In this document: positions 5,060-59,600 of the stretch, in pieces
How positions within the stretch are numbered: the first letter of the stretch is position 1
Layout of the letters: each line of letters begins with the position of its first letter
Source of the DNA: Utricularia gibba
Lineage: Eukaryota; Streptophyta; Magnoliopsida; Lamiales; Lentibulariaceae
NCBI GenBank assembly: GCA_002189035.1
Contig: NEEC01000002.1
Location: forward strand, 6,595,001 to 6,659,000
Direction of reading: 5' to 3'
Length of the DNA: 64,000 nt
Notes under the pieces: model-generated
The model's input: the letters and a program-made list of their open reading frames with translations, nothing else
Told to the model about the DNA's origin: nothing
Database searches by the model: none
Position numbers and translations under genes: made by a program

Positions 5060-6589
5060 ATGGCCGGCCAGCCCCCACGTCCGGCATGGATGCGATACCC
5101 AACTCGCGCCGCTGCCCTCTTCCTGATCCTGTTGATCCACCGCCGGTCCCGGTTCCCACGCCGGCGCCGCTGCGTCCTATGTTTACATTCAGGATTCCTG
5201 CTGTCACACCGCCGCCATTGCCTCCTGCGCCGGCTCCCGTTGCTGTGGCACCAACGCTGCCGCCTCCTGTAAGGCCGCGAGTTGCGGTTACTTTAGCACC
5301 ACCCCGCCAGCGCCACCGATCGTTGTCCCACGACCAGTTTTGGTTTCTGTAGCGCCCCGCCGCCTCCGATCGTGGCCCCGCGTCCGGTTTCGGTTGTTGT
5401 TGCGCCGCAGCCTCCGGTGATTGTTGAACCTGATCGCCGGCGTTCTCCTCCGCCGGTGTCCCCGATTGCGACGCCGTCTGTTAGAAGGTCTCGGTCGCCG
5501 CCTCTGGTACAACCAATTGTTACGTTTGCTCCTCAGCCATCTCCTCCGCAAATTTCCTCCATAGCAGCGCCGTCTCCTACAAGGTCTCCGTCGCCGCCTC
5601 CACCGATTGTTGCGCCTGCTCCTCGACCGTCTCCTCCGCCAACATCCCCGATAGTAGCCCCATCTCCTACAAGGTCTCCTCCGCCCGTATCTCCGATTAC
5701 AGAGGGCCCGTCGCCGGAAAGGTCTCCGATTCAAGAATCGCCGCAGACAGCAGTGATTCCACCCATGTCTCCCATTACCCTTCCGGCTCCTCGTCCGTCG
5801 CCAACAAGGTCTCCGATCCCACCGCCATCTCCACCACACTCTCCCCTGGTAGCTCCAACGCCGCCTCCTCCCTTCAAAGATTCAAACTTTATTAAACCCC
5901 AGTCCTCTTCTTCTCTCAATAAATCGCCACTACCAAAAATCAACTCCCCACCACCAAAAAACCCCACTCCCCCATCTCATTCCCCACTTCAAAAACCCTC
6001 AGAAACAGCAATCAGAGACGCTATTCCATCACCACAAACGGTGAAATCTGTGGATAAATCTCACCCTCCATCACCCTTAACTCTACCCGCAGCCAGATTA
6101 AGGAGCATCAACAACGGGGTGCCTGAAATTGAGCAGAAAAACGTCCTGGTTCAACATACAATACACAAACCAACGGAAAATCCTCACAGTCACAACAATG
6201 GCGATACGTCTAATGGAAACGGAGATCATAAATCTAAAGACACCCGCAAAAAACCCACCCCGGAAGATCTTGGAATGAGAGTTATCACGCTTGCAGGAGA
6301 AAACAAAGGAGCAGTGATGGAATTCGGCATCAATCCTACAAAAGGTCGCACTTTGGGAAATGGAACAAAACTGGGAAAAGCGGATGGTGATCAATCTGGT
6401 AAACAAGTCGAAGAAGGGATGAAAAAAAAATCAATGGCGATTCAGACTCCATTTACATCGTATTTGAACAGCAACGTTCAGGGACTAAACAACTCAATTA
6501 TGTATAACTGTTGCTTCAGGAATAACGATCCTGGTATTCATCTGTCCCTCAAAAGGTTCCCAAATGGCCGCCGCAACTCCAAGGAATGA
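5060..6589 (+). CDS. Proline-rich protein with conserved C-terminal domain (frameshifted as written)
   Basis: Single-exon gene for a proline-rich protein of roughly 510 residues, of the type often annotated as hydroxyproline-rich or gp1-like; its molecular role is not known to me. The body is built of SPPP, PSPTRSP and PIVAPRP repeats. The C terminus carries the conserved part of the family: DLGMRVITLAGENKGAVMEF, then SYLNSNVQGLNNSIMYNCC and NNDPGIHLSLKR. As written the frame breaks three times: the reading moves from the ATG at 5060 (MAGQPPRPAWMRYP) to a second frame after the C run 5115-5117, to a third after 5302-5305, and back to the first after 5355-5358. Three one-base losses in C runs would explain this, and the net change of three restores the phase of the 5060 start, which is why that ATG was chosen. 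No clear signal peptide is seen, so a cell-wall location is unproven. Confidence 0.72.
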
Positions 6590-7035
6590 AGTGAAATCAA
6601 GATGGAAGCTTGATGTGAGTTCTTTGCCTTTTTAATTGTCATCTGAGTTTACACCTACTACAACTCATGGATTCAAAGAGAAAGTGTGATAATAAGTTGG
6701 ATTGGATTCTGATGCCTCCAACTTGTAATATTCAATGGAGAAGAATAAAAGTTTTTCCTCTTATGTCACTGTTACGCAAATCCTACAACTTTTTCCTTGT
6801 GAATAAAAATAATTCGAATTCGAATGTTTGAAAAATTGTTGGGACGATGAAACGGACGCAGATGCGGACAAGGGCGGGGAGTTGGACAATTTATTTAGGT
6901 TGTTGGGTTCGAAAAGGCCTCCCAATAGCGAGAGGATGACCTAACCGTAAATTTGTCGCTTCAAAACACGCTACACGTCTCTCATTTCACTCTACTCCAC
7001 AGAAAAAGGCCCTTCAGTGTGCTTGGTTTGCAGGT
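6590..7035. other. Intergenic: 3' end of proline-rich gene and cytochrome b5 promoter
   Basis: This 446 bp stretch carries the downstream region of the proline-rich gene (AATAAAA-type signals near 6745 and 6801) and the leader of the cytochrome b5 gene. No other feature was seen. Confidence 0.5.
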
Positions 7036-8425
7036 ATGGCTGGAAAACTGTACACTTTTGAAGATGTAGCCAAACACAATAACAAGCAGGATTGCTGGCT
7101 GATCATCTCCGGAAAGGTCAGATCTTGTTTCTCCCTTGGAAAAAAAGCTTCTTGAGTCGCAGATTGCTGACTGGCGATGGAGTCTGCAGGAATTTTTGTT
7201 CTTTTTACCTCATTCTAACCCAACCCACAATCAGAAGTTGGAAGCTTTATTCTTTTGTTGTCGTTATTGTTGAGCTCTGTGGTTCTCCTTTCAGTTGAGT
7301 TAGTGAAATTTTTCGATTAATGATCATTGCTAATGGTTGGGCTAATCTGGAAAAATCCCGAGTAATTTGGTTGGGTTGTTTTCTGGGTTTTGAGATTTGT
7401 GAGTGAATTTAGGAGCTCAGCATCGAATTCAGACAAATAAACGAAATTGACATGCATACCTAAATTTTAGGGCTCAATGTGAAACACTCTCCTGCAATTT
7501 TTAACCCCTTGCCTAGAAGAGCAAAAGCATAGGGGGCGTTTTGGTTGATCTGAATTTAACTAGCAGTTTCCTGCAATTTTTTGCCATAACTGAGTTCTGT
7601 GATATTACACCTTTCTTAGATGAGCCAAATCACAAGCTTTCCAATGAATTTTACCAGCACTTGCCTGCAAATTGTTGCCACTGAGTCACTTTATGATGTT
7701 ACACCTTTCTTGGAACAGCAAAAATCATCGGCATTATCGTTTCTGATGATCCGATTTCGATGAACCTAACCAACACTTTCCTTGCATATCTTGCCATTAA
7801 TCAGTTTATGATGTTACACATTTCTTGGAAGAGCAAAACTCATAAGGGTTATCGTTTTGGATGATCCGATTTCGATGAACCTAACCAACACTTTCCTTGC
7901 ATATCTTGCCATGAGTCAGTTTATGATGTAACATCTTTGTTGGAAGATCAGAACTCATAGGGGTTATCGTTTTGGATGATCCAATTTCGACAAACCTAAC
8001 CAACACTTTCCTGTGATGTATCCCCACTGAGTCAGGTTTACGATGTTACACCTTTCCTAGAAGAGCATCCAGGAGGAGATGAAGTCCTAGCACAATCAAC
8101 AGGTTAGCATGTGCTTCATCTCCCACCACAGCAGCAGCTGCTAACTCATTTCCTCCACTGCATTCCAGGGAAGGATGCAACTGCTGACTTTGAAGACGTG
8201 GGTCACAGCAACGACGCACAGGAGAAGATGAAGGAATTCTACATCGGCGATATCGACGAATCAAGTATTCCGTTGGAGCACAAATCAGGGATATCGCCAC
8301 AAAGCTATACAACTACCAGTGCTCGCAGCTCCGGTGATTCTTCCAAGCTGTTCCTCTACATTGCTCCCCTGTTGCTGCTGGGAGTTGCATTCCTTCTCCG
8401 GTTCTTCTCCAAGTCGGCTGAATGA
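7036..8425 (+). CDS. CYB5: Cytochrome b5, tail-anchored (ER type)
   Basis: Small haem electron carrier that feeds electrons to desaturases, hydroxylases and other ER enzymes. Exons 7036-7116, 8036-8102 and 8169-8425 join in frame to 134 residues, the usual plant length. The start [15 protein letters not shown] is typical. The two axial haem histidines are His38 in [10 protein letters not shown] and His62 in FEDVGHSND. After the haem domain and a serine-rich linker, residues about 108-127 ([20 protein letters not shown]) form the C-terminal membrane anchor, followed by SKSAE. Intron 1 is unusual: it contains a degenerate tandem array whose units repeat the start of exon 2 (see the repeat entry). 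All three splice junctions are GT-AG. Confidence 0.95.
7503..8066 (+). repeat. Degenerate tandem array in cytochrome b5 intron 1 carrying exon 2-start copies
   Basis: Units of about 115 bp. The segment TTATGATGTTACAC-CTTTC-TGGAAGAGCA recurs at about 7597, 7691, 7806 and 7921, and the real exon 2 (GTTTACGATGTTACACCTTT) begins at 8036. Spacing is 94, 115, 115 and 117 bp. A still older remnant with CTTGCCTAGAAGAGCAAAAG lies near 7507. Between these cores the units share GGGTTATCGTTTTGGATGAT and CCTAACCAACACTTTCC. Copies 2 to 4 also keep an AGTCA(G)/ATCAG string where the true acceptor GAGTCAG lies. The array stops inside exon 2 after GAAGAGCA. Confidence 0.85.
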
Positions 8426-8903
8426 ATGGAGCCGGCGGTTGCAGTTCGATGGCTGATCTTCTTTCTCAATGTGCTTGAAACGAAGGACTACTTATTTTCC
8501 TGCTCATTAACGACATTGTTCCTTCATCTGCCATTAAAGCTACTGTAAATCCGAGCCAACACCATGTTTTAGTTTTCATAATGTATTCTAAAATTGGAGA
8601 GGGGGAGAATATAAAGTTTAGGAGTTTAGTAATAGTATATTACATTAATTACAGATAAAAGAAAAATATGTTTAAATAAAAATATTTTTTTTAATTTGGT
8701 ACGATGTTAATTTATTTTATAATAATTTGAATAATTATTTACTCTTAATTTCAATTTTTAAAAAAATTAAAAATAATGGTCTCACTTTTATTTGAATTTG
8801 TAATAATAATAATGAAATTGAGGAAGAATTTTTTTTAAAATATGACCAAAAATGAAAAAAAGTGCAGGGCGGCTCACAGAGTGGATGAAGCCACTAATCT
8901 GAC
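8426..8903. other. AT-rich intergenic between cytochrome b5 and LHY
   Basis: The first part is the likely 3' UTR of cytochrome b5; from about 8590 to 8860 the sequence is very AT-rich with no open frame or repeat that I recognise. Confidence 0.5.
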
Positions 8904-8913
8904 GCCACGTGGC
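8904..8913. promoter_or_regulatory. Palindromic G-box upstream of the LHY/CCA1-like gene
   Basis: A perfect 10-base palindrome GCCACGTGGC contains the core CACGTG at 8906-8911. It lies just upstream of the probable transcribed leader of the clock MYB gene. G-boxes in LHY and CCA1 promoters are known binding sites for light-linked bHLH and bZIP factors; function here is inferred from position. Confidence 0.55.
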
Positions 8914-9797
8914 AGTATATCACGCACTCCCATATATTGCCCCAAATAAATGGCTCATTTTTTCTCTTTTTTTTTCTTGGGAATTTACTACCACTCGCTG
9001 TGGTTGTGGCTCTGGATTTTCCCAATAAAAACAAAAAAATGGAAAATTCAAAAAATTATACCGTTTCCTTCTTCCACGTCTGCGTATTCGGGAGCTACTT
9101 GCTTCACCAGTCACTATTCCTCTCTGATCTCTCGGCTTCGCTTCTTGCAGTGGTTTTGATGTATGAAAGTTGGCAGGTGATTTCAGTTTGCTCTTCAACG
9201 ATTGAGTGAAGTCCAAGGTCCCGGTGGCGGTATGGGTGGCTTCAATGGTATTTCCTGTGGACATTTCTTTTTTTTTTTTCCGAAGTGATTGTAATGCTTA
9301 CAGTTTTGGTTCAGCACCTTCTCCTTTTTTTTCCGTATTGCGTTTGAATTTTTTGTTATATTCCATTAGACGAGGAGGATAAAGGTGAATCCTGTTTTAT
9401 ATTCCCAAGTGTTATTTTATGCTACTACTATCTGACTTCTTCTGGCTGTTGGATAAAGATTCGCGTATCTATGGTTCCGCTCATTGCTTGTTTTAAAGTT
9501 TTATGGCGCTTAGATTGGCGTAAAAATGTTATGTGCTTTCTATTGCAGTTGTGTGTGAAATAGATTTTGGGGTTGAATTTCAAGAGAATATACCGAACAC
9601 TAGGTGTTGATGATGGGAAGCGAGAACAATTTTCTTAATTCTTCCTGATACAATATTTTCTCTTTTGCAGTACTTATTGATCTGTCAGGTGGCTTTCCAT
9701 CATCTCACTGCAAGAAGGAAGCTATTTTGCGGTTATTGTGCCAAGTGAGGAGGCAGTTTGTTCTCAGGATTTGAACCATGCTCATATATCCTTTTAG
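8914..9797 (+). other. Probable intron-containing 5' leader of the LHY-like gene
   Basis: This region precedes the start codon at 9798, which directly follows a splice-acceptor-like string CCTTTTAG. It contains several plausible donor and acceptor sites (for example TTGGCAG/GTG near 9178). LHY and CCA1 genes commonly have several non-coding 5' exons, so I read it as leader exons and introns, but their exact borders cannot be set. Confidence 0.5.
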
Positions 9798-12700
9798 ATG
9801 GATCCTGATCTGTATAGAGAAGACGTTGTGATCAAGGTTCGATTATCGTACTTTTTTTAGTTATTTTTTATTTTCTTCTGTAGTACTAGCTTTTGGTTCA
9901 TTTCCCGCTGGCAGACAAGGAAACAGTATACAATTACAAGGCAGCGTGAGAGATGGACCGAAGAGGAGCATACAAAATTTTTGGAGGCCCTCAAGCTTTA
10001 TGGCCGTGCGTGGCAGCGCATAGAAGGTGTTCACTCTTCTGTTTATTCTCCTTGATAATACGGATGTTTTTATGAGTTGACTTTCCTAAGGTCATGCCAT
10101 ATTTTGCATACGGGAACTATATATCCTGGAAACGCTTTTTTTAACGGGAGAAATTAACCTATTCCTCATTCCAATTTACTTCGTAATTGTGCAGAACATA
10201 TAGGAACAAAGACCGCGGTTCAAATAAGAAGTCATGCACAGAAATTTTTCACAAAGGTTCACTAATCAGTTTCTTTTTTGCTTTGTTAATGTTAAGGTTC
10301 AGACTTTTCCCTTGCCTCACTTACGGATTAAGGAAAATTATACAAAATTACTTGCATGATCGATGTTATGTCTGTAAAGCAAGTGAGTTTTTTTTTAATC
10401 TCTGTGTATGAAATTCGAACCTTGATCAATGCATGCTCTACAATATCTGCTATTCCTTCATATAGGGAATTTTCCTAAATCATTAGGGTGTTAATGAATA
10501 TATGCATGTTTTTGCTTACAGTATCATAAGGTTGAACCTTGGATGTGTATCACTAAAAGAACACATGGCCTTATGTTGTTCCAGTTATCTGAATGTATAT
10601 TCTCTAATTTTTTTTTGCTTGTGTGCTTCATTCAGTTGGAAAAGGAGGCCACTGTTAAGGGAGTAGGGAATACTCATGATATTGAGATACCCCCACCACG
10701 CCCTAAGAGGAAACCTACTAATCCTTATCCTCGAAAAACTTGCATAGCTCCTGTGTTTCAGTTGGAATTGAAGGACGGAAATGTCTCAGATGCGAGTTCT
10801 AATTTGCTGCAGGAAAATGATCCCGAGGTAGGTCAATGCTTCTGTGATTTTTCCTATGGTGGATGATGTCTGCTTTTCTTCTTTTGAATCACTTTGTGTG
10901 GCAAATGTCTCTTTAGTACTGTTTTGCTGCAACTGACCGGTTTTTCATTCACTCTACATTGTACCTTACCAGATACTCTACGACCATGGAAATATTCAAA
11001 ACAGCAGAAAATGCCACGAAAACGATAGTTGCTTTGATGGTCCTTGTGCATCCCCAGCTTCAACTGATAACTATTCTTTTTCATCTAAGGCACCTATGAC
11101 ATCTCGTGCATGTAGACAGTATATCCAGGTAATGGATGATGATTCGAGCAATCAGGATGAAAGTGCAGCAGTATCACTAGTCACCGCCGATACTGTGGGA
11201 AATCATGCAGAACATTCTGATGAAAAACAGCTCTTCCCTGAAAATGCTTTGAATGGTTCATTAATCATGAGTGCATGGCCTTCTTGTGAAGAACCTCACT
11301 GCGAAATGGTACCTGAGCCGAAGCAGTCTGGAAATTGTTGCCAAACGTCAATTATTGATGAGCAATCGTCTCAGAACTATCCTCGCCATGTTCCTGTATA
11401 CATTCTTGCTGGGAGCTTAGGAACAAGCGCACAACATTTTTCTGCAGATATGCAATCAATGCTCAATCATGGTGCTCAAAGCCTTTGTATTAATCAAGCT
11501 GCATCTGCTACTTCTGAATATCATAGTAATGCAGCAACACCATCCATAAGTCAGCCAATTTTCAGTTGTGATCATTTATTCACTTCAATTCAGAACTCAG
11601 ATGACTATCAGGCATTTTTGCAGATGCAATCCACCTTTATGAGGCTCATCTTGTGCTATTTGTCTCAAAATGCAGCGGTGTATGCTGCCGCCAGGTTTGC
11701 CGCAACCTTGTTGCCATGGTTCAACATGGGAGCTCCAGTAGAACCGTCAGCAAATTTATGTGGGCTTTCTCTGTCGCCGCCAACAAGTTCAACATCTAAT
11801 CTGGAAGCAATTGCTGCAGCTACACTTGCTGCAGCAAGTGCCTGGTGGACAGCCAATGGCCTTCTTCCTTCATGCCATCATCCTGGATTCATGTTTTCTA
11901 CTGCATCAGCTACTGCAGCCCAAGCGGCTTGTTGCCAAAGTGGAAACGTGGATGGAGAAGCAACAGAAACTACTCATGATCCTGCCCTGGAAAATCAACC
12001 GGATGTGGAGTTCTCAGAGGCTCAGAATTCCAAATCAAGAACTTCACCATCAGACAGTGAGGCAGGTGAAGCTGAAAAGGCTAAGGGCGAATTGACTGCC
12101 GCTGGATCTGCAGAGGCTGAAAACGAAGATGCAATCCACGACTCATACAAGTCAAAGAACAACAAACAGTTAGGCCGCTCTTCATGTGGATCAAACACCA
12201 CTTCAGGCAGCGAAGTTGAAACTGACACAAATAAGCTTGGCAAGGGAAGGGAGGAAAAATATCTCAGTACAAATGAAGACAATAATGTACTTGATGCAGC
12301 TCCTCCGATTGCAGATCTCTTTAGTCGTCGCTCTAGAACCAACAACAGCGTAGCTGACTCCTGGAAAGAAGTATCAGAGGAGGTACTGACACTTTCTCCT
12401 CAAGCTTCTATATTCCCATCCCCCCTCCTGCTGTTTTGTTAACATAAGATAGCTGCAGGGACGATTAGCATTTCAGGCTCTCTTCTCCAGAGAAGTGCTG
12501 CCTCAAAGTTTTTCCCCTTCTCATGACATAAGTGGTGATGTCAAGAAACAGAGCAGTAATCATGAAGAAGGCAATAAACTAATGTTAAACCATGATGGGA
12601 GCACCAGCACCAGCACCACCTCTGGAAAGCTAGAGATTAGAAGGAGCTCTACCATAACAGGAAACAAGCGAGAGGGGCTCTTCAACGAGGAGCTAGGTCA

Positions 12701-19200: not shown

Positions 19201-22200
19201 CAGTTGTAGGAATTACATGCCTGCGAATATTTTTTTGCTATTGTATTGGCTTAACTATTGTTTTGCGAAGGAAATAATTTAAACTTCAGTTTACACTTTG
19301 GTCTGAAGTCCATAATTGTTTTAAAAAAATTCCTTATCACTTAGAATTGATTATATATTCACGTATATTACCTTTTTCTTATTCATTTATTTACCCATCA
19401 TTTTACAGTTGAAAGACTGATTTTAGGCGACTTGATCACAATCAAAATCTTGCATATCTATCGCATCAAGTTTTTAATTAATTTTCCAATGTATGAACAT
19501 TCATTTGGATTGGGATGATTTTAGAGATTCATAAATTATTTCTATTTGATAGTTGTGGAGTACATATCCTCTATGCATATATCTGATAATTCATGTGCGT
19601 TTGAAATTTTTGTATTTTGTGTTTGGATCATAGACTTCACTCCAGTTTTTCTTTGTTAATAGGTTCTTCAAATGATGGTTGAATTTTACAACCCCAAAAA
19701 ACCAAACAAGTTGAAAAGAATATTCACCATGACTCCTTTTGGTGGACTGCTTTCTGCTGCTGTAAGTTTAGAATTTATTTGTATCCTCAAATTTACATGT
19801 TTAAATGTCAGGCATAGCATTGTCTCTTTCAATATGTACTTCAGCTTGTTCGGTGTCGCTAATTTTGTTGTTGGTGATACTCAGCTTGGCCACTTGACTA
19901 TCACTGCACACATAAAATAGTTATTTTCCTTAGGAAGGAATAGAAATTGTCTTCACGGAACAGAGTTATGCTATAAGTACATTTTATTGGACAGGGAGTT
20001 TTTTTATCTGTTGATAAAATTTATGAATGAAGGGATGTGCCATATCTCGATTCCCCAGTCCACTGCTTAGCCATCCCATTGAAGACCTTCACAGATATTT
20101 TTAGCTTGCTGCTATGTGACTTTGCAGGTTGCTTTTATTAGACTCGTAAATCCAAATAATGTTCACAAGATTTCTCAAGCATTAAGCCATCAAGATGTGG
20201 ATAAGGTGTCACAAGAGACTGTGGATGCTTTTTTAGGTGATGCAGAGGTGGCTACAGAGTCTAATGTTGTTTCAAATGTGGACAGTGTAACATGTAAACG
20301 TGGTAAGCATTTCAAAGAAAACTTATGGATTTGCATCTGTGAGGGAGCTTGTTGCACGGAATAGCACTGAATCTCTTTTAGTTTGAAAACCCGTAAATTT
20401 TATATTTTCACCTATGTTTTTACTTATAGCATAAATATGTGAAACGTGAGTGTTTCCAAATAAGAATGAATACATGCATCATACTAGGTATTTTTTGGCG
20501 AGTATGAAACTTGGAAATCCTGATGTTTTGTATTCATTCAGTCTTTGGTGTTATTGCAGATGTAAGAGCTGAAGATATTTTGATGAAACTTTCTGAATAT
20601 TTTGAGGCTGAGATGATCAGCAACAGAAGTCCATCCATTAGTTATAAATTTCATTTGTTGAAAAAGTTTTGCATGTTAGAGAGTTGGCTGACTGAAGTAT
20701 TTTCTGTTGGCATGTTTGAATCTCTGGGTCATGGAGACTATTTTATGTTCTTAGAGAAACATGTGCACCTATTGCCCATCAACTTCAAAGTTTCATGATA
20801 GGGGGTGCAACTGAAGGCTTCCTTTTGGAAGCTCGCTTGCTTCCAATTCAGTTAGATCTGCTAATATCACAAGCTGTTATTGCCTCAAGTGAAAATGAAG
20901 CGTTAAGCTTGCAGAGCATTTCCAACTTACTAGTCAGGCAATTTCCGTTAGCATGCTTCAAACTTGCAAAAGATGATCTAACTGAAAACTTGGCAGGAAA
21001 TTTTCATGAAAGAACAGGAGCCTTTGCATCATCTTGTGTGCTTTTTTCTACACCATTATTAGGTTTAGGTTGCAATGGCGACTCATCAGATCAATGTGGG
21101 AAAAAAACAATTGGAAATGCTGGTTTTTCTTTTATTGGGAAAACAGAAGAAAGATTGTTTGATCCAGTGGCCACTGCAGACGCCATCCAAGCTTTAATTA
21201 AGGCTCCTATGCTGACTGATTTAAGCTTGTGGCTGCACTGGGACATTGTATTTGCACCATCACTTGGTTCCTTTATGGAGTGGTTACTTAAGAATGTGAA
21301 GACAAAGGACTTCCTATGTTTAGTCACCAAGGACAGTAAGGTGATCCGTATCAACCATTTGGCCACCATTGATACGTTTATGGAAGCTTTTGTACAGGGA
21401 TCTTCATTTAAAACATCCTTAGAGTTATTGTCAATAATTGCCACATGTGGTGGCCGACATAATGTTCCTGTGGCGCTGATAAAATCTCATGCACAGAAAG
21501 CATTTGAGGTGCTTTTGGGCAATTATATTGTAAAAAATCCAAATGTTAATTCGGGGGTCCTGTGGCAGAAGCCATCTGATGATGATGATACACCTGTGAA
21601 TGGCGGTTTTTGTAGCTTTGCTCGGACACCATCAGGTATGAATGCAGTCAACAAAGCCGCTCCATTTATGTCAAAGTTCGTTCTTGATTGCTTGAGTTAT
21701 ATGCCGAGTGAGTTTTGCAGTTTTGCCACCGATATCCTGATTTCTGGGATGCGAGCCTTTGTGATGGATGCTTCTAAGGCTATCTTGACTGAATGTAAGC
21801 AGTTACACCAACGGATTATGCTGCATGACGTTGGGATGGCACTTGGAGTAACAGAATGGGTTAATGACTACAATTTGTTTTCTTACCCAGTGGATGTTGA
21901 ATCTTTTTCTGGATCGTGCTGCTTAATGGAGGCATCCTATGGTAATGTAAAACCACCAAATGGGAGAAATGAAATAAACTGCCATTCATCTTCATCAAGT
22001 GAAATACTTGGTCTCCCAGATGAGGAGAATGAACTTGATGCCAGTGTTAAACAAGTCCTTGACCGGGTTGATTCAGATAACATTTTCATCAATGACCATG
22101 AATTAAAAAAACAGGTCATAAGTGATTGTCACATTGACGATGATCCTGCAAAAGTAATTGAATCTATTCGGAAGGAGGAATTTGGTCTGGATCCAAGTCT

Positions 22201-29586: not shown

Positions 29587-31185
29587 TCACGCGGCAACAA
29601 TGCCTTCCGCCACGAGCTCCGACTTCAGCTGAGCCACCTCCTTTTCCGGCAGGATCGCCGTCACCGATCGCCCTCCGTCGCCGCCGCGTCCTTGAAGCAC
29701 GAGAATAGCGCCGTTCGCTCCTACTCCATCAATTCGATAACTGACTCTCACTGGTTTCTCTCTGTTGTATTCGAACCCGTACAGATCCGCTTCTCCGAGG
29801 TCCAGGAAACTCAAGTTCGCACCATACACAACAAAGTCGGCCAGTCCCTGGCTCCTCTCCATCGCGCTTTCGATCTTCTCCCGCTCATCCACCGCGTCCT
29901 GCAGCAGAGCCGCCAATTCGCTCCGATCCATTTCGATCACCGATTCCGGACCCCTCGCCACGCCCACAGTCTGCGTATTACTTAGGTAGATCTCACCGTC
30001 GCCGTCTCCTTCGCGACTGCCCTTCCTCAACACCGTCACGACCTTGGGCTCCGCACCCGCGCCACGGATCTTGGCGACACATTGCCAGATGACGGCGGAA
30101 ATCGCCTCGAATTCGCCTTTCGCACGCAATCTCGACCGCAGAGTACTCAGCTCCGCGGCGGAGATGTCGAATGAGAACAGCTCCATCTTGCCCTCCGGGG
30201 AATGGATCCAATGGTCCCCCACCGGGTCGACCCGCAGAACAGAAAGCGGATCCTTCAGACTCTCTCCATTGGGTCTGAGCCCATTGCTTTTGAGCGGCGC
30301 AGAATAATTTGCCAGATCAACGGGCGGCCCAATATCCAGGCCCGCAACTGTTTTCCCCCACAGGTTCACAAAATCCACCATCGCAAAGGCATCCCCCAGA
30401 ACGTGGGCCCAGCTCACACCCACCGCCGCCCCCCTCCTTCGAATTTCGTCAGCTGCATTTAAAAACCTCACGTAATTTCAAAAAATAAACTAATTTTAAT
30501 AATTAAAAAATCCCATCAAAAATAATATAGGATTTTAATTCTTTTAATGAGCACGTCGCAGTCGGACGTGGAACGGACAAGCATCCCGCGTGGGCCCACC
30601 AACAAAATAATTAAATCCTATTTTGTAATCATTAAAAAAGGGGGCAGTTATTGTTCTCCATTATTTTATTTTTAACCAACGGTAACTCTAATTAAAGCTG
30701 TGGTTTTATTTTATTTTTTTATTCCTTGGAACTGAACCAGCAGGAGCAGAGGCGAGGCGCACCTGGACGTAGACGGAGGGAGAAAATTGGAGCTCCGGAC
30801 CCATAACTTGACCCGAAACCAGAAGCTTCTCCTTCTCCTCCAAGTCTCTAGCCTCAAGCCACTCCTCTAGGGTTTTCCGGCACTTCAACTCCACGAACCT
30901 GACGCCGCAGTCATTGCATTTGATGTAGGGCCTGCCGGAATCATCTCGCCGGAATCTTCCGTTGTGGACGGGGAACTTGTTGAGCCAAACGAAGGTGGGA
31001 TCCTTGATATCCTGTACTTTCAGCCCATCAAAAGCTTCTCTTTTGAAATAGTACACGCCTCTGATGTAGTGGAGCTTCATCGCCAAATCAATGTTACCGG
31101 GCTCCACCTCCGTGTTGAATCCGGCCACTTTTCCGGGTCCGATCGACGACAGCTTCAGATCGTAGACCAGATCCTGCTCACCCAT
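29587..31185 (-). CDS. CER2/CER26-like BAHD-family protein (one frame break)
   Basis: CER2-like proteins are BAHD acyltransferase homologues that act with the CER6 condensing enzyme in the ER to extend very-long-chain fatty acids for cuticular wax. Two exons: 31185-30763 (141 residues, MGEQDLVYDLKLSSIGPG, then DLAMKLHYIRGVYYF) and 30452-29587. Exon 2 begins LTKFEGG and then changes frame within the run of six C at 30429-30434 (G on the coding strand); one more G would continue into AAVGVSWAHVLGDAFAMVDF. The BAHD HxxxD motif is present as HVLGD, about residues 158-162. The usual DFGWG motif is absent; the equivalent place reads ADLYGFEYNREKP, as expected for the CER2 group rather than catalytic BAHD enzymes. 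Total length is about 430 residues, normal for the group. Confidence 0.86.
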
Positions 31186-45167: not shown

Positions 45168-46362
45168 ATGGCGTCGAAGCCGAGGTGTATCAGCTTGACG
45201 GCGTCGAGGAGCCGATGCCTGAAGCTCTATTTCTCCCGATCGGGGCTACGCCCCACGACGACGGACTTGGGAGGAGGGACGGTAATGCACTGCTGGGTAC
45301 CGAGGAACCCGAACCCGACCCGAAGGAACGTGCTCCTGATCCACGGCTTTGGAGCCAACGCCTTGTGGCAATTCTGTGATGCTGTGCCGGGTCTGGTGGC
45401 CCGGTTCAATGTCTACGTCCCGGATTTGCTCTTCTTCGGGAAATCGTACTCGGCGGAGAGTGACCGGAGCGAGGGGTTTCAGGCGCGGTGCGTGAAGCGG
45501 GTGATGGAGGCGAACAAGGTGGAGAAGATGGCGGTGGTGGGTCTGAGCTACGGGGGTTTGTGGCGTATAGTATGGCGAGCCAGTTTCCTGAGAGCGTGGA
45601 AAAGGTAGTGATCTGCTGCGCTGGAGTTTGTTTGGAGGAGAAGGATTTGACGGAGGGGCTGTTCATGGTGTCCACTGTAGACGAGGCGGCGGGGCTGTTG
45701 ATGCCCAAGACGGTGGAGAATCTCAGGGAGCTCATGAGGCTCACTTTCTACAAGTTCCCCAAATCCATCCCCTCTTTCATCCTCGAGGACTTCATTGAGG
45801 TCAGCAGCCGACACCTCTGATCCAACCATCCACCTCGCATTTCGAATCACTCGAAATCCGGTAAATTCATATCCTACTCTACAACGGTAAATTCTACAGG
45901 AAATGTGCGTTCAATACGTACAGGAGAAATCGGAGCTGCTTCACGCCATTGCACGGGGTAGAAAGCTCTCAGAGCTTCCCAAGATATCTCAGGTCAACTG
46001 AACCCATCACATCCCTTCTACATAAACGTGCGGCTTCCGAAGGTGAAGCGCGTTAACTGTTTCCTGTCATTTGCAGCCAACTCTGATAATGTGGGGTGAC
46101 AAAGACCAGGTTTTTCCAATGGAATTGGCCCACCGATTGGAAAGGTCGAGATTAAGCAGCATTCTAACAGGTTGTGGAATTATTTACCTTTTTTCCGGCG
46201 TTTACTGGTTGGTTGTGCAGGCATTTGGGGGAGAACGCTGAGCTGGCCGTAATCAAGAAAGCAGGGCACGGCTTCTTTCTGGAGAAGCCAAGACAATTCA
46301 ACCGCCGCCTGAAAGCATTTCTTGAGGCTACCACCACCGCCCCTGCCGCCTTGAAGGCCTGA
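45168..46362 (+). CDS. Alpha/beta hydrolase-fold protein (one frame break)
   Basis: Serine hydrolase-fold enzyme of a plant family with unknown substrate. Exons 45168-45799, 45900-45992, 46077-46144 and 46221-46362 give about 311 residues if one base is restored. Family signatures include MHCWVPRNPNP, the oxyanion-side LLIHGFGANALWQF and VPDLLFFGKSYS. The catalytic triad is visible: Ser127 in GLSYGG, Asp in MWGDKDQVFP and His in AGHGFFLEKP. As written, the frame breaks immediately after SYGG in the run of five G at 45552-45556; the next frame continues FVAYSMASQFPESVEKVVIC, exactly where the family continues. Exon 1 to exon 4 junctions are GT-AG and in phase. No transit peptide is obvious. 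Confidence 0.87.
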
Positions 46363-46701: not shown

Positions 46702-49189
46702 TTATACCAAGTAGGAAGACATGAGGCTCCAGCTAGTTTTCATGTGAAAAGGCATTTCTGCTACAAACCTCAGCAAATCAGGCTGCAATCCAGCTTCTGC
46801 TGCTGCATCTCTCTTCACTTGCTTTCTGTTGTGGAGTTGAACGAACTTTGATATATTGGGCAGCACCATTTCCCTGCAATGGAGATGAAGAAGGGGAACT
46901 TTGGACAGCACGCTACCTTTCTGAACTTGCAGACCCTCAGGGCGCCTCAGCTTGTAGGGTGCTCCGGTCGTCGGCTCGTAATCGACTCTCGGCGTTTGCT
47001 TCCATCTGCTATGGACGAACCATCCATATCTGTAGTCTCCAACGATCGGAGTACCGAGAGCTTCTGCACAATGGACCCTTAGCTGCCGGAGGAGGAAGGC
47101 AGTGTGAATCTCAAGTTCATGTGAAGTTGCATTCATTGGAACAGGGGATTAGAATTGACTGAGGATGATGGGGGGCTATTTGATGTTCTGTTACCTGATG
47201 TTTACATCTTGTATGTGGTCGCAGCTCGATCCAAGAACATCCATTGATCGTTGGACCAAGTACACGGTACTCAGTCACGGCGGGTTGGGAAGAGTCCATC
47301 CCCAGATCATTGGCTAGGATTATTCTCTGTGTTTCTCCATCATCAAGGAGCAGCTGCCATCATAGAAATCAAATGATCCAGGGTAGAGCTAGTTCCTTGT
47401 GAAAAACTACTTGCTGAATTCAGAATTGCAAACCTTCGATAATGGTGCAGATATTAACCCTTCCTTATGTTTTGGTGAACCAATAACCAAAGCCCAATAC
47501 CTCTGATACATAGCATCGCAAGCATCACTCCACTCCTTTTGATTAACAAAAACGAAGTTTTAGCTGATTTGTAGCAAAAGATCAACCACAGGATTTATGT
47601 TTTAGAGCAGTCAAAGAGAGGGTCACAAAAAGCTCGAAAATCTCAGATCACAAGAAGCTCAAATACCTTGGACAAGGGTTTGGCTTTTTTAGTGTCACTG
47701 AACAACCACTGAAGATGAGAAATGCTTTCCTTTGTTCGTCCCATCAGCAGGAGGCCGCAACTCTCTCTGTCAAAGCGATGCACCTATAAGAATATTCACA
47801 AATAATCGACTATGATGAACTCATGCTTGCAATATTTTGGAAACATGTCATTTTGTGTTGGAAGAGTACTTGATTTTTCGTATGGACCAGATAAACATTA
47901 GCACAACACAAACGGCTACACCTATTACATAGTTTATGAAATTTGACTATATTGATCAGCTTTCTCTTCAACTTTCGCGTCAGATATCATTTATTCTTCA
48001 ATCCCAACTCCTCACATTATATATTCATCAAAAGTAGGCCTAGAGAAGCTCACCAATTTCGGACCCTCTGCCAAATCATATGACAATGCAGCAGCTGCCA
48101 TGGCATCCATGCTGTTAAGAACCGAAAGGTTCCCCTGGTTGCAGAGATAATGTCAAAGGAATCGACAGTATAATAAACACAAGATAAAAAGTATTGACGA
48201 TTCTAACCTTTAACGGAAACTTGGGGGCTTATTTAGAACAAGTATAGCAGGGTCCTGAGATTATAAGTTAAACTGATCAGCAATGATATCAATGCCATTT
48301 GAATGAAGTTCATGGCTGAGATTCTCAACAGTAGATATGGAGCTTTTTTTGTTTGCCATCAAAAATTATACCTCACAAAAATAGCTTACAAAAAAAAAAA
48401 CGTCGACCTATCATAAAAAACATGCCTTGTAATCCACAAGCCTCTGCAAATACTGAATCTCATCAGCATTCGGGTTAGCAGTTCCAACAGGTATAACATC
48501 AAACCTCTTCGATGGTCTACTTTCAGCCACAGTAACGGGGACATGAACTCTCGAACCACCTTCCATGATATGTTTTCCTCCAATCTACATATTAAATGTC
48601 TCGATAATGAAAATTTCAATCTGTATATCTATGTAGTACGCATAAGAATGCAAGGTGAAAGCAATAACTGCAGCCAGTGTATGTCTTGACTCCTGTAGCT
48701 TGCAACCGTCAATAAGTTAAGCATCATTACCTTCTCCAATGACCTTGACCTTCCAGTGCAATCTCCCATAGAATCTACTGAACCCCGACATTCAATCTGA
48801 ACCTGCTAAGCCAAAGAAAACGGGGAATACTAATAGCAGAGAATTTGAAACGAGTAGCATAAGATGAAAAATGAGAGGACACCCACGAGGCCTTTCTTAA
48901 AATAATCCTGAATAACTGGAGGAGGGATGTCTTTGAAGTAATATTGGAGCCAACTTAGAGCAGTAACATGTCCAGTTGACGTTGACCTTCGGCCCGGCAA
49001 GGGGTGCCCTGGAAATGCAGGTAAAGATAGCAACTGCCGAGGCTTTGCGTCCTGTTTCCGCTGGCCCAAACGAGCAATATTGTTCGACACCCGAATTATA
49101 GGCTCTGCAGTAGCCGGCGGTGGTGGGCGAATCTTCGATCTCGGCCGGCAGGTGGCAGTCTGGCTGAGGAGCCTATTCCGCATAAACAC
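46702..49189 (-). CDS. RluA-family RNA pseudouridine synthase, probably mitochondrial (one frame break)
   Basis: Enzyme that isomerises uridine to pseudouridine in organellar RNA; closest to plant RNA pseudouridine synthase 3/4 proteins. Minus-strand exons: 49189-48887, 48802-48731, 48584-48426, 48254-48208, 48134-48054, 47783-47667, 47535-47434, 47353-47195 and 47082-46702, about 473 residues. The arginine-rich, acid-poor N terminus looks like a targeting peptide. An S4-like segment follows (YYFKDIPPPVIQDYFKKGLV, QIECRG). The catalytic motif is HRFDRESCGLLLMGR with Asp at about residue 226; most relatives have HRLD. The C-terminal part keeps LRVHCAEALGTPIVGDYRYG. The 47 bp exon 48254-48208 reads DPAILVLNKPP and then breaks at the five-G run 48223-48227 (C on the coding strand); one more base gives KFPLK and restores phase. 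The donor after 48426 is GC. Confidence 0.87.
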
Positions 49190-50511: not shown

Positions 50512-51677
50512 ATGGCTTCCAGTCTACGTGTCTTCGTTCTTGTCCTAACAGCCGCCGCTCTTTTTGCTTTCTCAGGTTTTGTTTCGTGGAATGTAATGCT
50601 TTAGTATCATAACTTGAGTCCTCATTTTGTTGGTAAGAATGAGTTTTTTGGCATGGCAGATGCTCAGATCGGCGCCGCGTACGGGAGGAATGGAAACAAC
50701 CTGCCGTCGGCGGCGGACATCGTGCGTCACTACAACAACAATGGGATTCGGCGGATGAGGATCTACGACCCCGCCCAGGATACCCTAAACGCGCTTCGTG
50801 GTTCCAACATCGAGCTCACAGTTGGGGTGCCCAACTCCGACCTCCGGTCGATCGCCGGAAGCCAGGACGCAGCCAATTGGTGGGTTCGAAACAATATCCA
50901 GAACTACGGGAACGTTCTGTTCCGGTACATCGCTGTCGGAAACGAGGTAACTGATTTAGTGTTCACTTTTTTGACAACAACAGACTTGAAGACTTGCTTT
51001 TTTTCTGTCAACAGGTCAGCCCTCTTAGAGGGGATACTTCGCAGTACGTGCAATTCCTGCTCCCGGCCATGCAAAACATTCAGAACGCCATTAACGGCGC
51101 AGGGCTCGGCGGCCGGATCCGGGTCTCGACGGCCATTGAAACCGGACTGATCGGAAACTCTTACCCCCCGCAAGATGGGGCTTTCCGCAACGACGTCCTC
51201 TGGTTCATCACGCCCATCGTCCAGTTCTTATCAAGAAACAGCTCCCCGTTGCTCGCCAACGTATACCCCTACTTCTCATACATAAACAACAAGGCGCAGA
51301 TCAGCCTCCCCTACGCGCTGTTCACCTCCGACGGAGTCGTCGCTGGCGGCGTCAGGTACCAGAACTTGTTCTTCGCAATCTACGACTCCGTAGTCGCCGC
51401 CGTACAGAGGGTGGGCGGGAATGGAATGGACGTCGTTGTATCAGAGACTGGGTGGCCCTCGGCAGGCGGAGACACGACGAGCATTGATAACGCCAGGACT
51501 TATGCCACTAATCTGGTCCGCCGTGTCAACGACGGCACGCCGCTGCGTCCTGGTCGTCCGATTGAGACGTACATATTCACGATCGTGGATGAGAATCTGA
51601 AGAATCCAGAGGTCGAAAAGCATTGGGGCATCTTCTATAACAACTTGCAGCAGAAGTACCCCATCAGCTTTAGTTAA
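50512..51677 (+). CDS. Glucan endo-1,3-beta-glucosidase (GH17, PR-2-like)
   Basis: Secreted enzyme that cleaves beta-1,3-glucan (callose or fungal wall). Exons 50512-50575, 50660-50946 and 51015-51677 give 337 residues. The signal peptide MASSLRVFVLVLTAAALFAF is encoded by exon 1, with cleavage expected before QIGAAYGRNGNNLPS. The catalytic acid is Glu117 in IAVGNE, and the nucleophile is about Glu261 in VVSETGWPSAGG. LANVYPYFSYI and GIFYNNLQQKYPISFS are family signatures. The protein ends at the conserved catalytic domain with no C-terminal vacuolar extension and no X8/CBM43 domain or GPI signal, which points to an extracellular PR-2 type. The first intron in the signal peptide is standard for the family; the second, only 68 bp long and directly after the catalytic acid codon, is not usual in my knowledge of this group. 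Confidence 0.94.
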
Positions 51678-52763
51678 AGCTTATTACCCGTCTGTAATAA
51701 TTGGGACAAATAAATAAATGAAATGCTTCATGTCCCATTTTACAATAATAATAAATTCCTTTTTATTTCTGGTCTTTAATTATTTTATCATTTTGGGCCT
51801 TTTCAAATTTATATCATATTCACAGAAAAGCACCAGCCTAGGCCCAATCAAGTTCACACCCTTTTCCTAAAAAAAAAATTAAATAAATAACATAGTTTAC
51901 AAACATATAAGTTTTATTTTCTGATTAAATAAACAAATATATAAGTTTTAGGGTTCAATGTTTGATAATATAGCATAATTAATAATATATATGAAACATT
52001 TATATTTAAATAGATATGTATTATAAGGTTAATATTAAAATTTGTTTGATACTTGAATTTTAAATATGTATGTTTAAAATGATATTATGTATTGGGAAAT
52101 GTGTTAAAATAAATATATTATAAATTGGATTATTTAGTAAAATCCATCTAAAAGTTGAGTTTTAAAATATTTAATTTTATTTATTTTTTAATTTTTAGTA
52201 ATTTGTAAGACGCTTGTATATTGTTAAAATAGTCTATTAAACATATACAGATACTTAAACAGTAAAACCAATATACCAAACATGCTCTAAAAGAAATACT
52301 AACTAATTCATTATGGATAATGATAGATAAATTGAGATTTAAGTGATAAAAATGATTAAAATATTCTAAAAATCAATAAATGTAAAGTATGATATTTATG
52401 AATTAAATTTGTTATTAATTTTTTAAGAAAATCCTCAGTATCATATATTTTGACAATAAAAATAATTGGTTCTTGATTACGGAGTTATTAAATGACAACT
52501 TTGCCCTGGTAATAATTTTGCATATTTTAAAATATTATCTCCTCCCAGTAAATTAATGACGATGAAATTATTAATTCTAATATTTAAAATATATTTTTTA
52601 ATTTAATTGACTATCGAAAAAAATATTTTGATTAATTTACGAATATAATTGCGATTTTGCACCGCCCACCGCCAGCTGAGTCCCTGTAAAAACGGAAAGC
52701 CCTATGTTTCTCAAGACCACCTGACTTCCCCATCACCGGAATCCCCGCGGTGGCCGCAGAAAA
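51678..52763. other. AT-rich intergenic between beta-glucanase and Dof genes
   Basis: The beta-glucanase 3' UTR (AATAAAT signals near 51711) followed by about 900 bp of very AT-rich DNA without recognisable genes, then the Dof leader from about 52650. Confidence 0.5.
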
Positions 52764-53425
52764 ATGAAGGTGCCGGCGCCGGCGAGACCAAAATGTTCAA
52801 AACCGAAGCCGGGGCACCGCCCTTGTTGCCCGCGTTGCGACTCTACCGACACAAAATTCTGCTACTACAACAACTACAATCACTCCCAACCCCGCTATTT
52901 CTGCAAATCCTGCCGCCGTTACTGGACACTCGGCGGCGCGTTGCGCAACGTCCCCGTGGGTGGCGGCACTCGCAAATCGAACAAAACCCCCCGGCCCTCC
53001 GTCTCCGATAACAGTTTCAATAATCCTGGCTCCGTCCTCCCTTCCGATGCCACTGATGGTAAGCTGAAAGTCCACGAAATGGGAAACTCCGGCAGCCTCA
53101 GTCCTGCTTGCAGCAACGGCGGCGGTCTTCTTCCGTTCACTCTGTACGGAACCGAGTCAGGTTCGTAAAATTACAATCATATAGTAAATACGAAGCCTCC
53201 ACATGTCGCTAACGTTTGAGCTATCTACAATAAATAGATGCCAGCTTTGAGCAAGGTCTGTTCAGTTGGCCCGACGAGGAGCTCTGCGGCGGTGGTTCAG
53301 AATACGTGGCGGCGCCCGGCGAGTTTCCAAACTGCGGTACCTGGGAAATCGGCGGCGATTTGGTTAACCTTGACCTTTCCTGGCCGGAGCTCGCTGTCCC
53401 GGCCCCGGCGGACAGTAACAAGTGA
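52764..53425 (+). CDS. Dof zinc-finger transcription factor
   Basis: Plant-specific DNA-binding factor that recognises AAAG cores. Exons 52764-53160 and 53238-53425 join through a GT-AG intron to 194 residues. The start at 52764 is the first ATG in frame after a TAA. The Dof finger is complete: Cys22, Cys25, Cys47 and Cys50 ([17 protein letters not shown] and [10 protein letters not shown]), followed by [17 protein letters not shown]. The remainder is short and of low complexity, with a tryptophan-containing C terminus ([29 protein letters not shown]), possibly the activation part. This is short for a Dof protein. An intron downstream of the finger is less common than one upstream, but phase and composition support it. 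Confidence 0.88.
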
Positions 53426-54116
53426 CGTGTCAGGCGGCGGAGGCAGCGAGTCTTCCGGTAACAGTGACATGTTACGTCGGCGTCAGTAAAAATTCGATGT
53501 GACGATAGTTTTTACTGTGCAATATATGTAACTACTATTCGGGATGTTATTATCATGATGATGACGTATCCAAGCAGGAGTGGTGACGTCACTTTGAAAA
53601 TGAAATAGTGCAATCATTCTGGTGCATGCTTTTCCACCACGTACAGTAAATACCGAATTAATAAATATAAGTATTTTAAAAAATCAGTAATTCGAATTTT
53701 AATATTAATTTATAAAATTATTACAATAATCACAGACTTGACGTGACGAAAACGCCCCGACCGTTTTGGTCCACTTGGTGCGCCGGAATTGATCCTGGCC
53801 CAAATGTCTCTATGGCGAATTGGGCCGTTTTCAAGGCCCAGGTTTGGGAAGCTTCTGGAGCCTCCCAGCTTTGCAGCCAATGATCGACTTGTTTGATGAA
53901 GGTTCCTGGGCGTTTCGCCGCTGCGTGTAGCGGTTCTCCTCCATTTTGTTTCGATATGCCCTTCTGAAAATTTGACAAGTAGTCAGTCGTGTACTGAATT
54001 TCTTGGGGATCTCTTGTGTCCGAATGATTCTGTCGATTTTGGTGGTAGTCGACTCATCTGGGTAGCCTTCTTGACTTCACACGCTTACCATTTGATCTGT
54101 TCGGTGTTCGCTGCGT
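53426..54116. other. Intergenic between Dof and processing peptidase genes
   Basis: Contains the Dof 3' region, a short AT-rich stretch at 53640-53730, and a GC-balanced region from 53740 that is probably the promoter and leader of the next gene. Open frames of about 80-96 codons here match no family. Confidence 0.45.
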
Positions 54117-55893
54117 ATGGCGATACGATTCACTGTCTGCTTCTCGGCTTCAATCGCCTCAAACATCGCGGCTTCCGGGAAATGCCCAACTTCACGCTTT
54201 CTTTACGAGTGCCTCGCTCGATCAGGGGGCTTGCAGAATTCTTCTTACCAGAAGAAATCTGATTGTTCTGGGTTCGGCCAGCCGTATTCAAGATGTGATC
54301 TTTTAAGTATGCCGACATCGGCCATGTATTCGACTCTGGCCGGGGAGGCTTCCGGCAAGCATGTGGAGTCGCCCCTGGTTATGGGTTTGATCTCTTTGGC
54401 GAAGAGGTCAACGGGTACTTCTTCGGCTGTCAGTGTTTTAGGAATTTCTCCTGTTAAGCTTTCTTCTTTCATTCCATTTCTTTCGGGTTCAAAATGGTTA
54501 CCTTGTAGTGAACCCGTGACCTCCGGGGTCGATAAAAAGGCTCTCGTTGTACGAGGACTAGGTGTTAGCAGTAGCAAAGGGACGGTGAAGAAGAAGGAGA
54601 ATGGTTTTGAGGCGTATGCCATGGACAAGAGTAGTGGTGGTAGTACTAAAAGCCTTTCTCCACGTAGCGACTATGTCAATGATAGTTGGCTTTCCAAGTT
54701 CACGAGATTCAGCAGCGAGGATGCCAAGGCTGCTTTTACTGCGTTTAGTGTTAGCCTCTTGTTCAAGTCTACATTGGCTGAAGCGAGGTCCATTCCATCT
54801 ACTTCAATGTTCCCAACCCTTGATGTGGGCGATCGAATTTTAGCTGAAAAGGTACATATTTGCATCCAAAATCTGATTCCTGATGTTGAACTGGATATGC
54901 TGCCTAGATTTGATATGATTGCATCGCGTATATGCCTATCCGGTTGCTGATTGCTTGAGTCTTTATCAATGTCCCATAACAATTCAGAGGTCTCTTTTCT
55001 GGTTTTCTACCGCTTACAGCCTACAGACTACTTCATATAGTTGACAATTCTACTGTTCATTTAACATAGTAGATCATGGATCTCTGGACAAGAAAAGCGT
55101 ATGCTGACCGTAGCTCTAAAACATCTGCTGTCTTCCATTTGTGCCCGGTTTCAGGTTTCCTACTTTTTCAAGAACCCCGAAATCTCAGACATTGTTATCT
55201 TCAAGGCACCTCCTATTCTTCAGGTATCTCGTCACTTTTTAGATTAGTGCACACTCTCTACTCCCCAGATGGAGTCCACTAAATGCCAGACTACTTGCAT
55301 ATTATGCAGCAAGTTGGTTTTAGTTCGTCTGATGTTTTCATCAAGAGAATCGTAGCTAAGGCCGGTGACTATGTAGAAGTAAGCCACAGAGCTCAAATTC
55401 CCTGCACCTGTTTGTTCATTGCAGCACTTTCCTCACATGCCAATTTGTCATCTTCCCCAGGTTCGTGACGGGAAGCTATTCATAAACGGCGTTGCTCAAC
55501 AGGAGGATTTCATCCTGGAGCCCCTCCAATACAACATGGATCCAGTGGTACCCGTCCACCCTCCACACACTGTCATCTGATCATCCTCCCCATTTGGGTC
55601 AATCTTTCGTTTCCCATATCGCAGCTTGTACCAGAAGGGTACGTCTTCGTGCTGGGGGACAATCGCAACAACAGCTTCGACTCCCACAACTGGTGAGCGG
55701 CCATCATTCTTCTCCCTGCTTTTGACACATTGCAAGCAACTTTGTGAACCCAAAGGTATGCGCTTTCAGGGGTCCCTTGCCTGTTTCCAACATCTTGGGA
55801 AGATCCATGTTCAGATACTGGCCTCCCTCAAAAGCACTGGACACCATGCAGAACGCCTCCACCCCAAGGACTCCTGCTGCTGTGTTTTCATGA
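54117..55893 (+). CDS. TPP: Thylakoidal processing peptidase (chloroplast type I signal peptidase)
   Basis: Membrane serine protease (S26) that removes thylakoid-transfer signals from lumen proteins. Exons 54117-54851, 55155-55223, 55310-55378, 55461-55547, 55625-55692 and 55770-55893 give about 383 residues. The first ~200 residues are serine-rich and weakly conserved, as expected for a chloroplast transit region. A hydrophobic stretch (AFTAFSVSLLFKSTLAEA) precedes the catalytic Ser230 in IPSTSMFPTLDVGDRILAEK. The catalytic Lys is about residue 280 in VFIKRIVAKAGDYVE. Later signature blocks are GDNRNNSFDSHNWGPLP and GRSMFRYWPP. Length and exon order match the TPP/Plsp group. The acceptor before exon 3 (ATGCAG/CAAG) is followed by a second AG, so its exact border could shift. 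Confidence 0.92.
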
Positions 55894-56604
55894 ACTGCGA
55901 GTCTTTTGTTCCCGTGTCCTAGTCGACACGCGGACGCGAGTCATCTCTACCAGTTGTTTATGGTCTATAGATCTCTTTTTTTTTGACCGAGATTCATTTA
56001 TTATGTATTTTGATGAATAAAATATATAATTAAATGGATAAGGTAGTACGTGGTGGCGAGGAGGTAATATGTGAGGAGATCAGGGGTATTAATGTAAAAT
56101 CACAGGGTCGGCGAAGGTACGGCTTGCCCCCCGACTCCTGAATCCCAGAGCTTAATCCAGGATGCTGACATGTATTACCATAAAAAATGAAGAAAAATTG
56201 AAGATGCTGAGTGCTGACAACGTCTTTTTTTGTGAGAAGGGTGATGCCGACAAGTTAAAAAGGTCTAAAGGAGTCAAATTTACACTCGGATTCTGCTCTG
56301 AAAGGAGTAATGGTGGACAATGCAAATGAGGGATTACTTTCTTAAACCGTTGCTAGCACGCAGTAGTGTGGTCAATACTCAATTGTCTCGATATGTCTAT
56401 GCTCGCCCCTCTGATCTGCTAAATAATGCTTCTTTAAAAAAGTAAGCTTCTTTCTTTCGTATCTTTTTGGAGAGGAGATTGGGTTTGTGGGTGTGGATAG
56501 AAAATCACTGTTTTCAGGTGTCGGTGATTCGGGTGCTCTGTGTCTTGCTTTGGGTGGCTTGATTTGAGGAGGGAGAGTTCGGCCTTTAGTGGGGTGAAGG
56601 AGAA
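55894..56604. other. Intergenic between processing peptidase and transporter genes
   Basis: The 3' end of the peptidase gene (a T-rich tract near 55975, AATAAAATATATAAT near 56016) and then the promoter and leader of the transporter. No coding feature was recognised. Confidence 0.5.
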
Positions 56605-59600
56605 ATGGGGGAAGGGCATCATCATAACCATAACCATGGCCATAACCATAGCCACCCGCCGCCGGTGATGCTTCCGCCGCAGATGGTGGCTGCGCCGCCG
56701 ATGGGGTTCCTCCGATGGGTGCTGCAAGAGGGCCTATTTATGCTCCAGCTGAGCAGCTTCAGCAGCTCAATTATTGCATATTCTCTAACCCCTCTTGGGG
56801 TCAGTAATCGGTTGCTAAATTCTTGATTGTTTTTATATTGTTTTGTTTCAGTGGGGTTAGCAGGATTCCCGTTTCCTCCTTTATTTTCTCTTCATTTCTT
56901 TGGGTGATATTAATTTGCAGTAGGTAAAAGAAGGGAGGAAGTTGGTTTCTTCAAATATAAAAAAGAAATTCGCCCATGTGTTGAAAAACCGTATCTGGCA
57001 TTCCATGTGCTGTGATGAAATTAGGAAAAGAGGAAACTTTAGATGCGTGCCTGAAAGAAAGTCAGCTTTTCTATATAAAAAGTTGTTCTCTTCGATGGGA
57101 ATCATAGAATTGGTGCTTTTTGGATTGTGGATTTCTCGAAGAAAAAGCGGACATGAAGAAGCTGCACAAACGGAGACTTTTTTTTTTCTGTCACCTTTAC
57201 TATATATTTCGTATGAATTCCTGATACCGGCGGTATGATTAGGGAACTCTGTATACATTTGCAGTTCAAATAATCCTGCTCGGTTTCCAACACTATGTGG
57301 TTATGCTTGGGACAACTGTTATGATTGCTAATCTGCTCGTGCCTCAGATGGGTGGTGGCCCTGTAAGTTCCTTCATACTCGTTGGCGTGTTCCTAAGCTG
57401 GGACAGAATGATCTTCGTGTTCCATTCTTTATTCTGTACTTTTGTAGCATTGAGTGTCTTATTCACAGGGTGATAGAGCTCGAGTTATCCAGACATTGCT
57501 CTTTTTGTCTGGACTAAACAGTCTCTTTCAAACTTGGATTGGAACTCGCCTTCCAACTGTTATGGGCCCTTCGTTTGCTTATGTTATACCAGTCATGGGG
57601 ATCACCAATGATCTTTCTGACAATGCTTTCGTAGATGGTCATCAGGTGCGCCTGACACCTTTAGATAGATTAGTTTTGTTGCGTATTTGCAGCATCAAAG
57701 ATTTATATTGAGCCCCATTTCATTTCAATATGTTCCATTTTAGCTTTTTCCTGCTATGCTTGTGCATTGATTGATTATTGTGCTTATAGAGGCAGCGAAT
57801 TCAGTTTTGAAAGAGTAGAAACAGGTAGTAGTAAGTGAGTTGGTGAAATGTAGAATGTAGAAACTTAGGTGATTGGCCAATGGAAGCACTGTAAAGATGC
57901 TTTGGGACAGTCAGTGCCTTGAGCTCATCAAAGTTTCTAATACATGAATTCTATGTCCACAGAGATTCACCTACACCATACGAGCCGTTCAAGGCGCATT
58001 GATAATATCATCTCTCATTAACATCCTACTTGGATACAGCAAAGCTTGGGGAAGGCTTGCAAGGTTTTTTATCAGTCCTTGTGTTCTATCTTCAGTAGTT
58101 TTGATGTTCCTGGCTGGTTTGATGACCTCCCCTTCCCTCTTTGCTTCCCCTTAACCAGACACTGCAGTCCCGTGGTGCTAGTACCAGCAGTTAGTGCAGT
58201 GGGCCTTGGCTTGTACTCTAGAGGATTTCCACAGGTGCCATTCATTATCTTGAAACTTTAAACCAAGTTTGGTAAACTATAGTTACTTATCATCATGCAT
58301 CCTCTACAGCTTGCTAACTGTGTAGAAATCGGCTTGCCTATGTTGATTCTCCTGGTTGGCACCCAGCAAGTGAGGAATCGTTTTATATCTGCAGATCTTC
58401 CCTTCTTATTCTATCTACAGAGATAGTTGAGTAACAGAGATGCTTTCCTTGTAGTATTTGCAACATGTCCACTCTTGGGCTCAGTCGAAGCTTGAGAGAT
58501 TTGGCTTGCTTCTCTGCATTGGCGTCATGTGGGCTTTTGCTGCAATTCTTACTGCTGGTGGAGCGTATAGAAACGCAGGCTTACAGAGACAGCAAAGCTG
58601 CCGCACTGATCGATCCTTCCTCATGACTTCCGCTCCATGGTACGCCCGGCACAGGGAGTTTGTTGAAGTAGATGGTGGCTTCCTCTGAACCATCTTTCTT
58701 GTGATTGCTCATTACAGGGTCAGCATCCCTTATCCTTTTCAATGGGGTACACCAGTATTCAGAGCTTCTCATGTGTTTGGGATGATGGGTGCTGCACTAG
58801 TTTCATCTGCTGAGGTTATCTTCTTTTCTGGAGATGGAATTTTACTTTCATTCTTTTGCCTTTCGGGATGACTCCTGTTTCAGGCCACAGCAACATTTTA
58901 CGCCGCCTCACGTCTCGCCGGCGCTACAATACCTCCAAACCATGTGATCACCCGGAGCATTGGCCTTCAGGTTAGAGAAGAAACAGAAGATACCCTGACT
59001 TTTAGCATGGCTAATCGCAGTTGCATGAGATCATGTGGAACGTGATTTTCAGGGTATCGGTCAGCTGTTTGAAGGGCTGTTCGGCTGCGTCGTTGGGACT
59101 AGCGCCGCCGTGTAAGGCCCTTCTTCTTATCCAGCTTGACGGAAGGGGTGTTCCAGGCTAATCGGTCTCCCCTGTTTTTCCCTGGTTTCTGCAGAGAAAA
59201 CGTTGGCCTCCTCGGACTAACTCGCGTAGGCAGCAGAAGAGCAGTCCAGATAGCTTCGGTGTTCATGGTCTTCTTCGCAATCTTCGGTTAGTTGATTCGC
59301 CTGAAAATCCCATGCTGGTTTCCCACCTCCCTGAAGCTGACCATCGGAACTTTACAGGGAAATTCGGAGCCTTCTTTGCCTCCATACCTATACCAATCTT
59401 CGCCGCCATATACTGCATCCTATACGGCATAGTTGGTGAGTAGCAACACCTCACTCACTGCTCTTTCCCCGTCGATCCAACGCCGCTAGCTCATCTCTTC
59501 CTTTTCGCAGCCGCCACCGGAATCTCCTTCCTGCAGTTCGCGAACGCCAACTCCCTCCGGAACATCTACGTGATGGGAGCCTCCCTGTTCCTAGGCCTCT

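Follow-up and report, generated by a model that had tools for sequence, protein, structure and literature searches.

In actinobacteria, a passage of the report on their PacBio genomes states that the consensus "tends to miss a G or C" (PMC4849082). The account of the Thermus thermophilus NAR1 PacBio genome gives, in the part considered here, 2927 deletions versus 1 insertion, with G/C runs of 5-6 as essentially the only sites affected (PMC7694296). In the excerpt that describes the assembly of Enterococcus faecium, HGAP followed by three rounds of Quiver still left 561 homopolymer deletions (PMC4888979). The genome of Utricularia gibba was also assembled with HGAP, at 88x (PMC5793159), and the assembly analysed here fits this PacBio HGAP genome. 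In our window, i.e. the whole 64 kb stretch of U. gibba DNA that was analysed, six unrelated genes carry apparent one-base frame breaks, eight in total according to a sequence-only reading that had ascribed them to a long-read assembly under-calling its homopolymers. The frame jumps and their restriction to C/G runs are plainly observed, and the same signature occurs outside the window in pentatricopeptide-type (PPR) genes and in 5S rDNA, i.e. in sequence of unrelated function, which supports that explanation. We therefore consider the breaks of the window to be most probably PacBio HGAP consensus errors in which one C or G was dropped per run, while the genes themselves are probably intact (probability about 0.96).

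The eight runs stand at the coordinates and have the lengths that had been claimed for them (CCC, CCCC, CCCC, CCC, CCCCCC, GGGGG, GGGGG, GGGG):

5115-5117, plus strand: CCC, first site of the proline-rich gene; break doubtful, an ATG at 5086 being already in the downstream frame
5302-5305, plus strand: CCCC, second site of the proline-rich gene; frame jump of one base, the repeat motif PPIVxPRPVxVxVAP runs on across the frames
5355-5358, plus strand: CCCC, third site of the proline-rich gene; frame jump of one base with the motif PPIVxPRPVxVxVAP on either side
20775-20777, plus strand: CCC in the NO VEIN-like gene; frame jump of one base, continuous reading DYFMFLEKHVHLLP/HQLQSFMIGG
30429-30434, minus strand: run of six in the CER2-like BAHD acyltransferase gene; frame jump of one base, QLTKFEGGG/AVGVSWAHVLGD
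45552-45556, plus strand: GGGGG in the alpha/beta hydrolase gene; frame jump of one base within the GLSYGG motif, VVGLSYGG/FVAYSMASQFPE
48223-48227, minus strand: run of five in the pseudouridine synthase gene; frame jump of one base, ILVLNKPPK/FPLK and then the next exon
56703-56706, plus strand: GGGG in the N-terminal region of the nucleobase-ascorbate transporter (NAT) gene; frame jump of one base, MVAAPPMG/VPPMGAARGPIYAPAEQ

The claim of a one-base break stands convincingly at seven of these eight runs, where three-frame translation gives an uninterrupted protein on either side of the jump and one added base at the run rejoins the frames. It does not stand at 5115, where no break is required: as the ATG at 5086 shares the downstream frame, the protein could start there unbroken, and a reading in the upstream frame is possible but not conserved. 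The other two sites of the proline-rich gene are backed by its internal repeat (PPIVVPRPVLVSVAP / PPIVAPRPVSVVVAP). The break in the CER2-like gene is the best supported of the window: in exon 1 the Pfam Transferase match reaches model position 138, and only if the break is bridged does it carry on at 139 across the intron, in exon 2. In the hydrolase gene, Abhydrolase_1 matches in two stretches (the best covering model positions 3-81 with 55.2 bits), which become a single stretch (3-103, 63.4 bits) once the break is bridged; the GLSYGG motif at this site is the nucleophile elbow of the alpha/beta hydrolase fold. For the three remaining genes, the breaks were recognised by the continuous reading together with a family domain elsewhere in the same gene, namely a PseudoU_synth_2 match in the pseudouridine synthase gene, a NOV_C domain further along the NO VEIN-like gene, and Xan_ur_permease exons in the NAT gene, where the break lies upstream of the transporter domain and an in-frame ATG is also found downstream of it.

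Frame changes of this kind might also be short introns or alternative starts that were misread as breaks. A frame change in a GH17 beta-1,3-glucanase gene of the window (50947-51014) fits a 68-base GT-AG intron, two cases among the PPR genes were likewise read as introns, and usable downstream ATGs are present at 5115 and 56703. At the CER2-like and hydrolase sites, however, the conserved residues abut without a gap and leave no space for an intron, and we consider it very unlikely that introns or alternative starts account for the breaks. The GH17 intron sits inside the conserved AVGNE/VSPLRGD stretch. The NAT gene has what looks like another jump close to its end (about 59.6-59.8 kb), which was read by eye as an intron.

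Every site in the window is a C/G run, in agreement with the earlier statement that no break lies in an A/T run. Of all runs of at least 3 in the approximate coding sequence of the window, about 35% consist of C or G, and on this basis the probability that all breaks would fall in C/G runs by chance is about 6e-4 for seven of seven and about 2e-4 for eight of eight. Three-frame Pfam scans of most genes in the window, combined with reading by eye (by eye only for exons without a Pfam model), yielded introns only, and no further break, gain-type break or break in an A/T run. Apart from these breaks the six genes read cleanly, and neither a stop nor a further shift was found in any of them. The mixed decay that would mark true pseudogenes, i.e. 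stops, substitutions, and gains and losses of varied size, was looked for in these genes and not found.

The sequence-only reading had proposed to check whether C/G-run deletions are enriched genome-wide, and samples of PPR genes and 5S rDNA from the assembly (100.1 Mb in 516 contigs, the window's own contig measuring 6.82 Mb) bear such an enrichment out. PPR genes were chosen because they are mostly intronless and built of a repeated motif, which lets a frame break be seen irrespective of the base behind it. The sample of 69 loci with 135,117 coding bases on several contigs contained seven clean breaks in six genes, each of the seven corresponding to the loss of one base. Six of the seven lie at C/G runs (GGG in L017, GGGGG in L051, CCCC in L066, two sites in L068, and GGG in L075), their placement within the scoring plateau being made partly by eye, while C/G runs account for 28% of the runs of at least 3 in the sampled genes. 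At the second site of L068 the plateau includes GGG, TTT and CCC, and the usual motif results from the GGG or the CCC reading. The seventh break, in L020, is likewise clean and of one base, and is not assignable to any run. Six of 69 PPR genes (about 9%) appear broken, and in five of these six a break could be assigned to a C/G run. The frame changes in L052 and L067, at first counted as breaks, are the two PPR introns mentioned above. In coding sequence, the loss rate relative to the true length of the C/G run was 1.3% at 4, 4.9% at 5 and 25% at 6.

The 5S rDNA sample consisted of 24 near-identical tandem units of about 549 bp each, located on small contigs whose quality may be below that of the large ones. 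These units differ by a single substitution, as opposed to 52 one-base losses at C/G positions, where only 4 gains were counted; short A/T runs had 4 losses. Beyond these, a T16 tract varied among the units, A was gained twice, and 13 differences spanned two to five bases. Among runs of 3-6, losses affected 39 of 432 C/G runs versus 4 of 264 A/T runs (P 1.6e-5), and loss at C/G runs climbed with length, from 4% at 3 to 15% at 4, 23% at 5 and 33% at 6. The conserved 5S gene itself was read one base short in ten of 27 copies, each time in a C or G run (L082-L085; C223, C224), which makes the 5S rRNA gene copies a handy internal gauge of error in this assembly. The near-absence of substitutions in these units speaks against sequence evolution, as evolution would leave substitutions too.

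These data also bear on the possibility that the broken genes are real pseudogenes, in which C/G runs lost bases by slippage while the small U. gibba genome contracted. This genome has indeed contracted, and at least one published loss, the N-terminal part of DCL3, is real in the DNA. On the other hand, every broken gene is clean apart from its run break or breaks, losses greatly exceed gains and C/G greatly exceeds A/T even in 5S rDNA that is nearly devoid of substitutions, and conserved 5S genes carry the same loss. Real pseudogenes are thus a highly improbable explanation for the set as a whole. It is also unlikely, though somewhat less so, that one or two of the eight sites might be true frame-breaking mutations among artefacts, e.g. 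a CER2-like wax gene lost in this aquatic plant.

DCL3 of U. gibba has been published as truncated, with support from transcript and 5' RACE (PMC8333044). We take the locus L086 (C213:2755600-2762970) to be DCL3; in this putative DCL3, Pfam matches PAZ once and RNase III twice, and no helicase or Dicer_dimer match was found within about 5.5 kb upstream of PAZ. We considered whether its truncation might be the same frame-break artefact and rejected this, the N-terminal part being absent from the adjoining DNA. The lack of helicase and Dicer_dimer upstream of PAZ points to a loss of another kind, and the error in C/G runs does not explain every reported loss, that of the N-terminal part of DCL3 being a case in point.

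A consensus error, our preferred explanation for the window, would have its source in PacBio continuous long reads of U. gibba that were assembled with HGAP and presumably polished with Quiver as the usual last step. The consensus would lose one base from short C or G runs, more often as the run lengthens, and the true runs in the plant would be one base longer than written. Across the genome, and whatever the function of the sequence, losses far outnumber gains, are concentrated in C/G and not in A/T runs, and become more frequent with run length; from this pattern we infer that each individual site of the window is an error. Programmed ribosomal frameshifting at the runs might restore the proteins as well, and a homopolymer is present at each point of frame change. 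However, the pattern is common to six unrelated genes in the window, to PPR genes elsewhere and to non-coding 5S rDNA, and we regard frameshifting as exceedingly improbable. One point against a consensus error is that breaks per C/G run were 5 to 7 times more frequent in the window than in the PPR sample (P 6e-4; 0.015 when the proline-rich gene is left out), which a uniform error does not predict. This excess could stem from the reader's choice of the window or from low local coverage.

As the genes are probably whole, any numbers of gene losses or pseudogenes derived from this assembly would be overestimates if its C/G runs were left unchecked. The finding is thus useful as a warning on this assembly and of low biological interest: judged by its sequence signature, it is an artefact of an already published kind and no new biology.

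The HGAP/Quiver assembly of E. faecium resembles that of U. gibba in its residual single-base losses, and differs in that Illumina reads were used for correction; the passage describing it does not state a base bias (PMC4888979). In T. thermophilus NAR1, as far as the cited part of the report goes, the affected runs are mostly of 5-6 and deletions amount to about one per 1000 bases, whereas in U. gibba runs of 4 are affected too and losses are rarer; both have losses far above gains, and both have them in G/C runs (PMC7694296). The actinobacteria are high-G+C bacteria in which, according to the passage cited, Sanger and Illumina sequencing provided confirmation, while for U. gibba the evidence is internal to the assembly; the PacBio genomes of these bacteria share with that of U. 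gibba the signature of one G/C missing in homopolymers and reading frames shifted as a result (PMC4849082).
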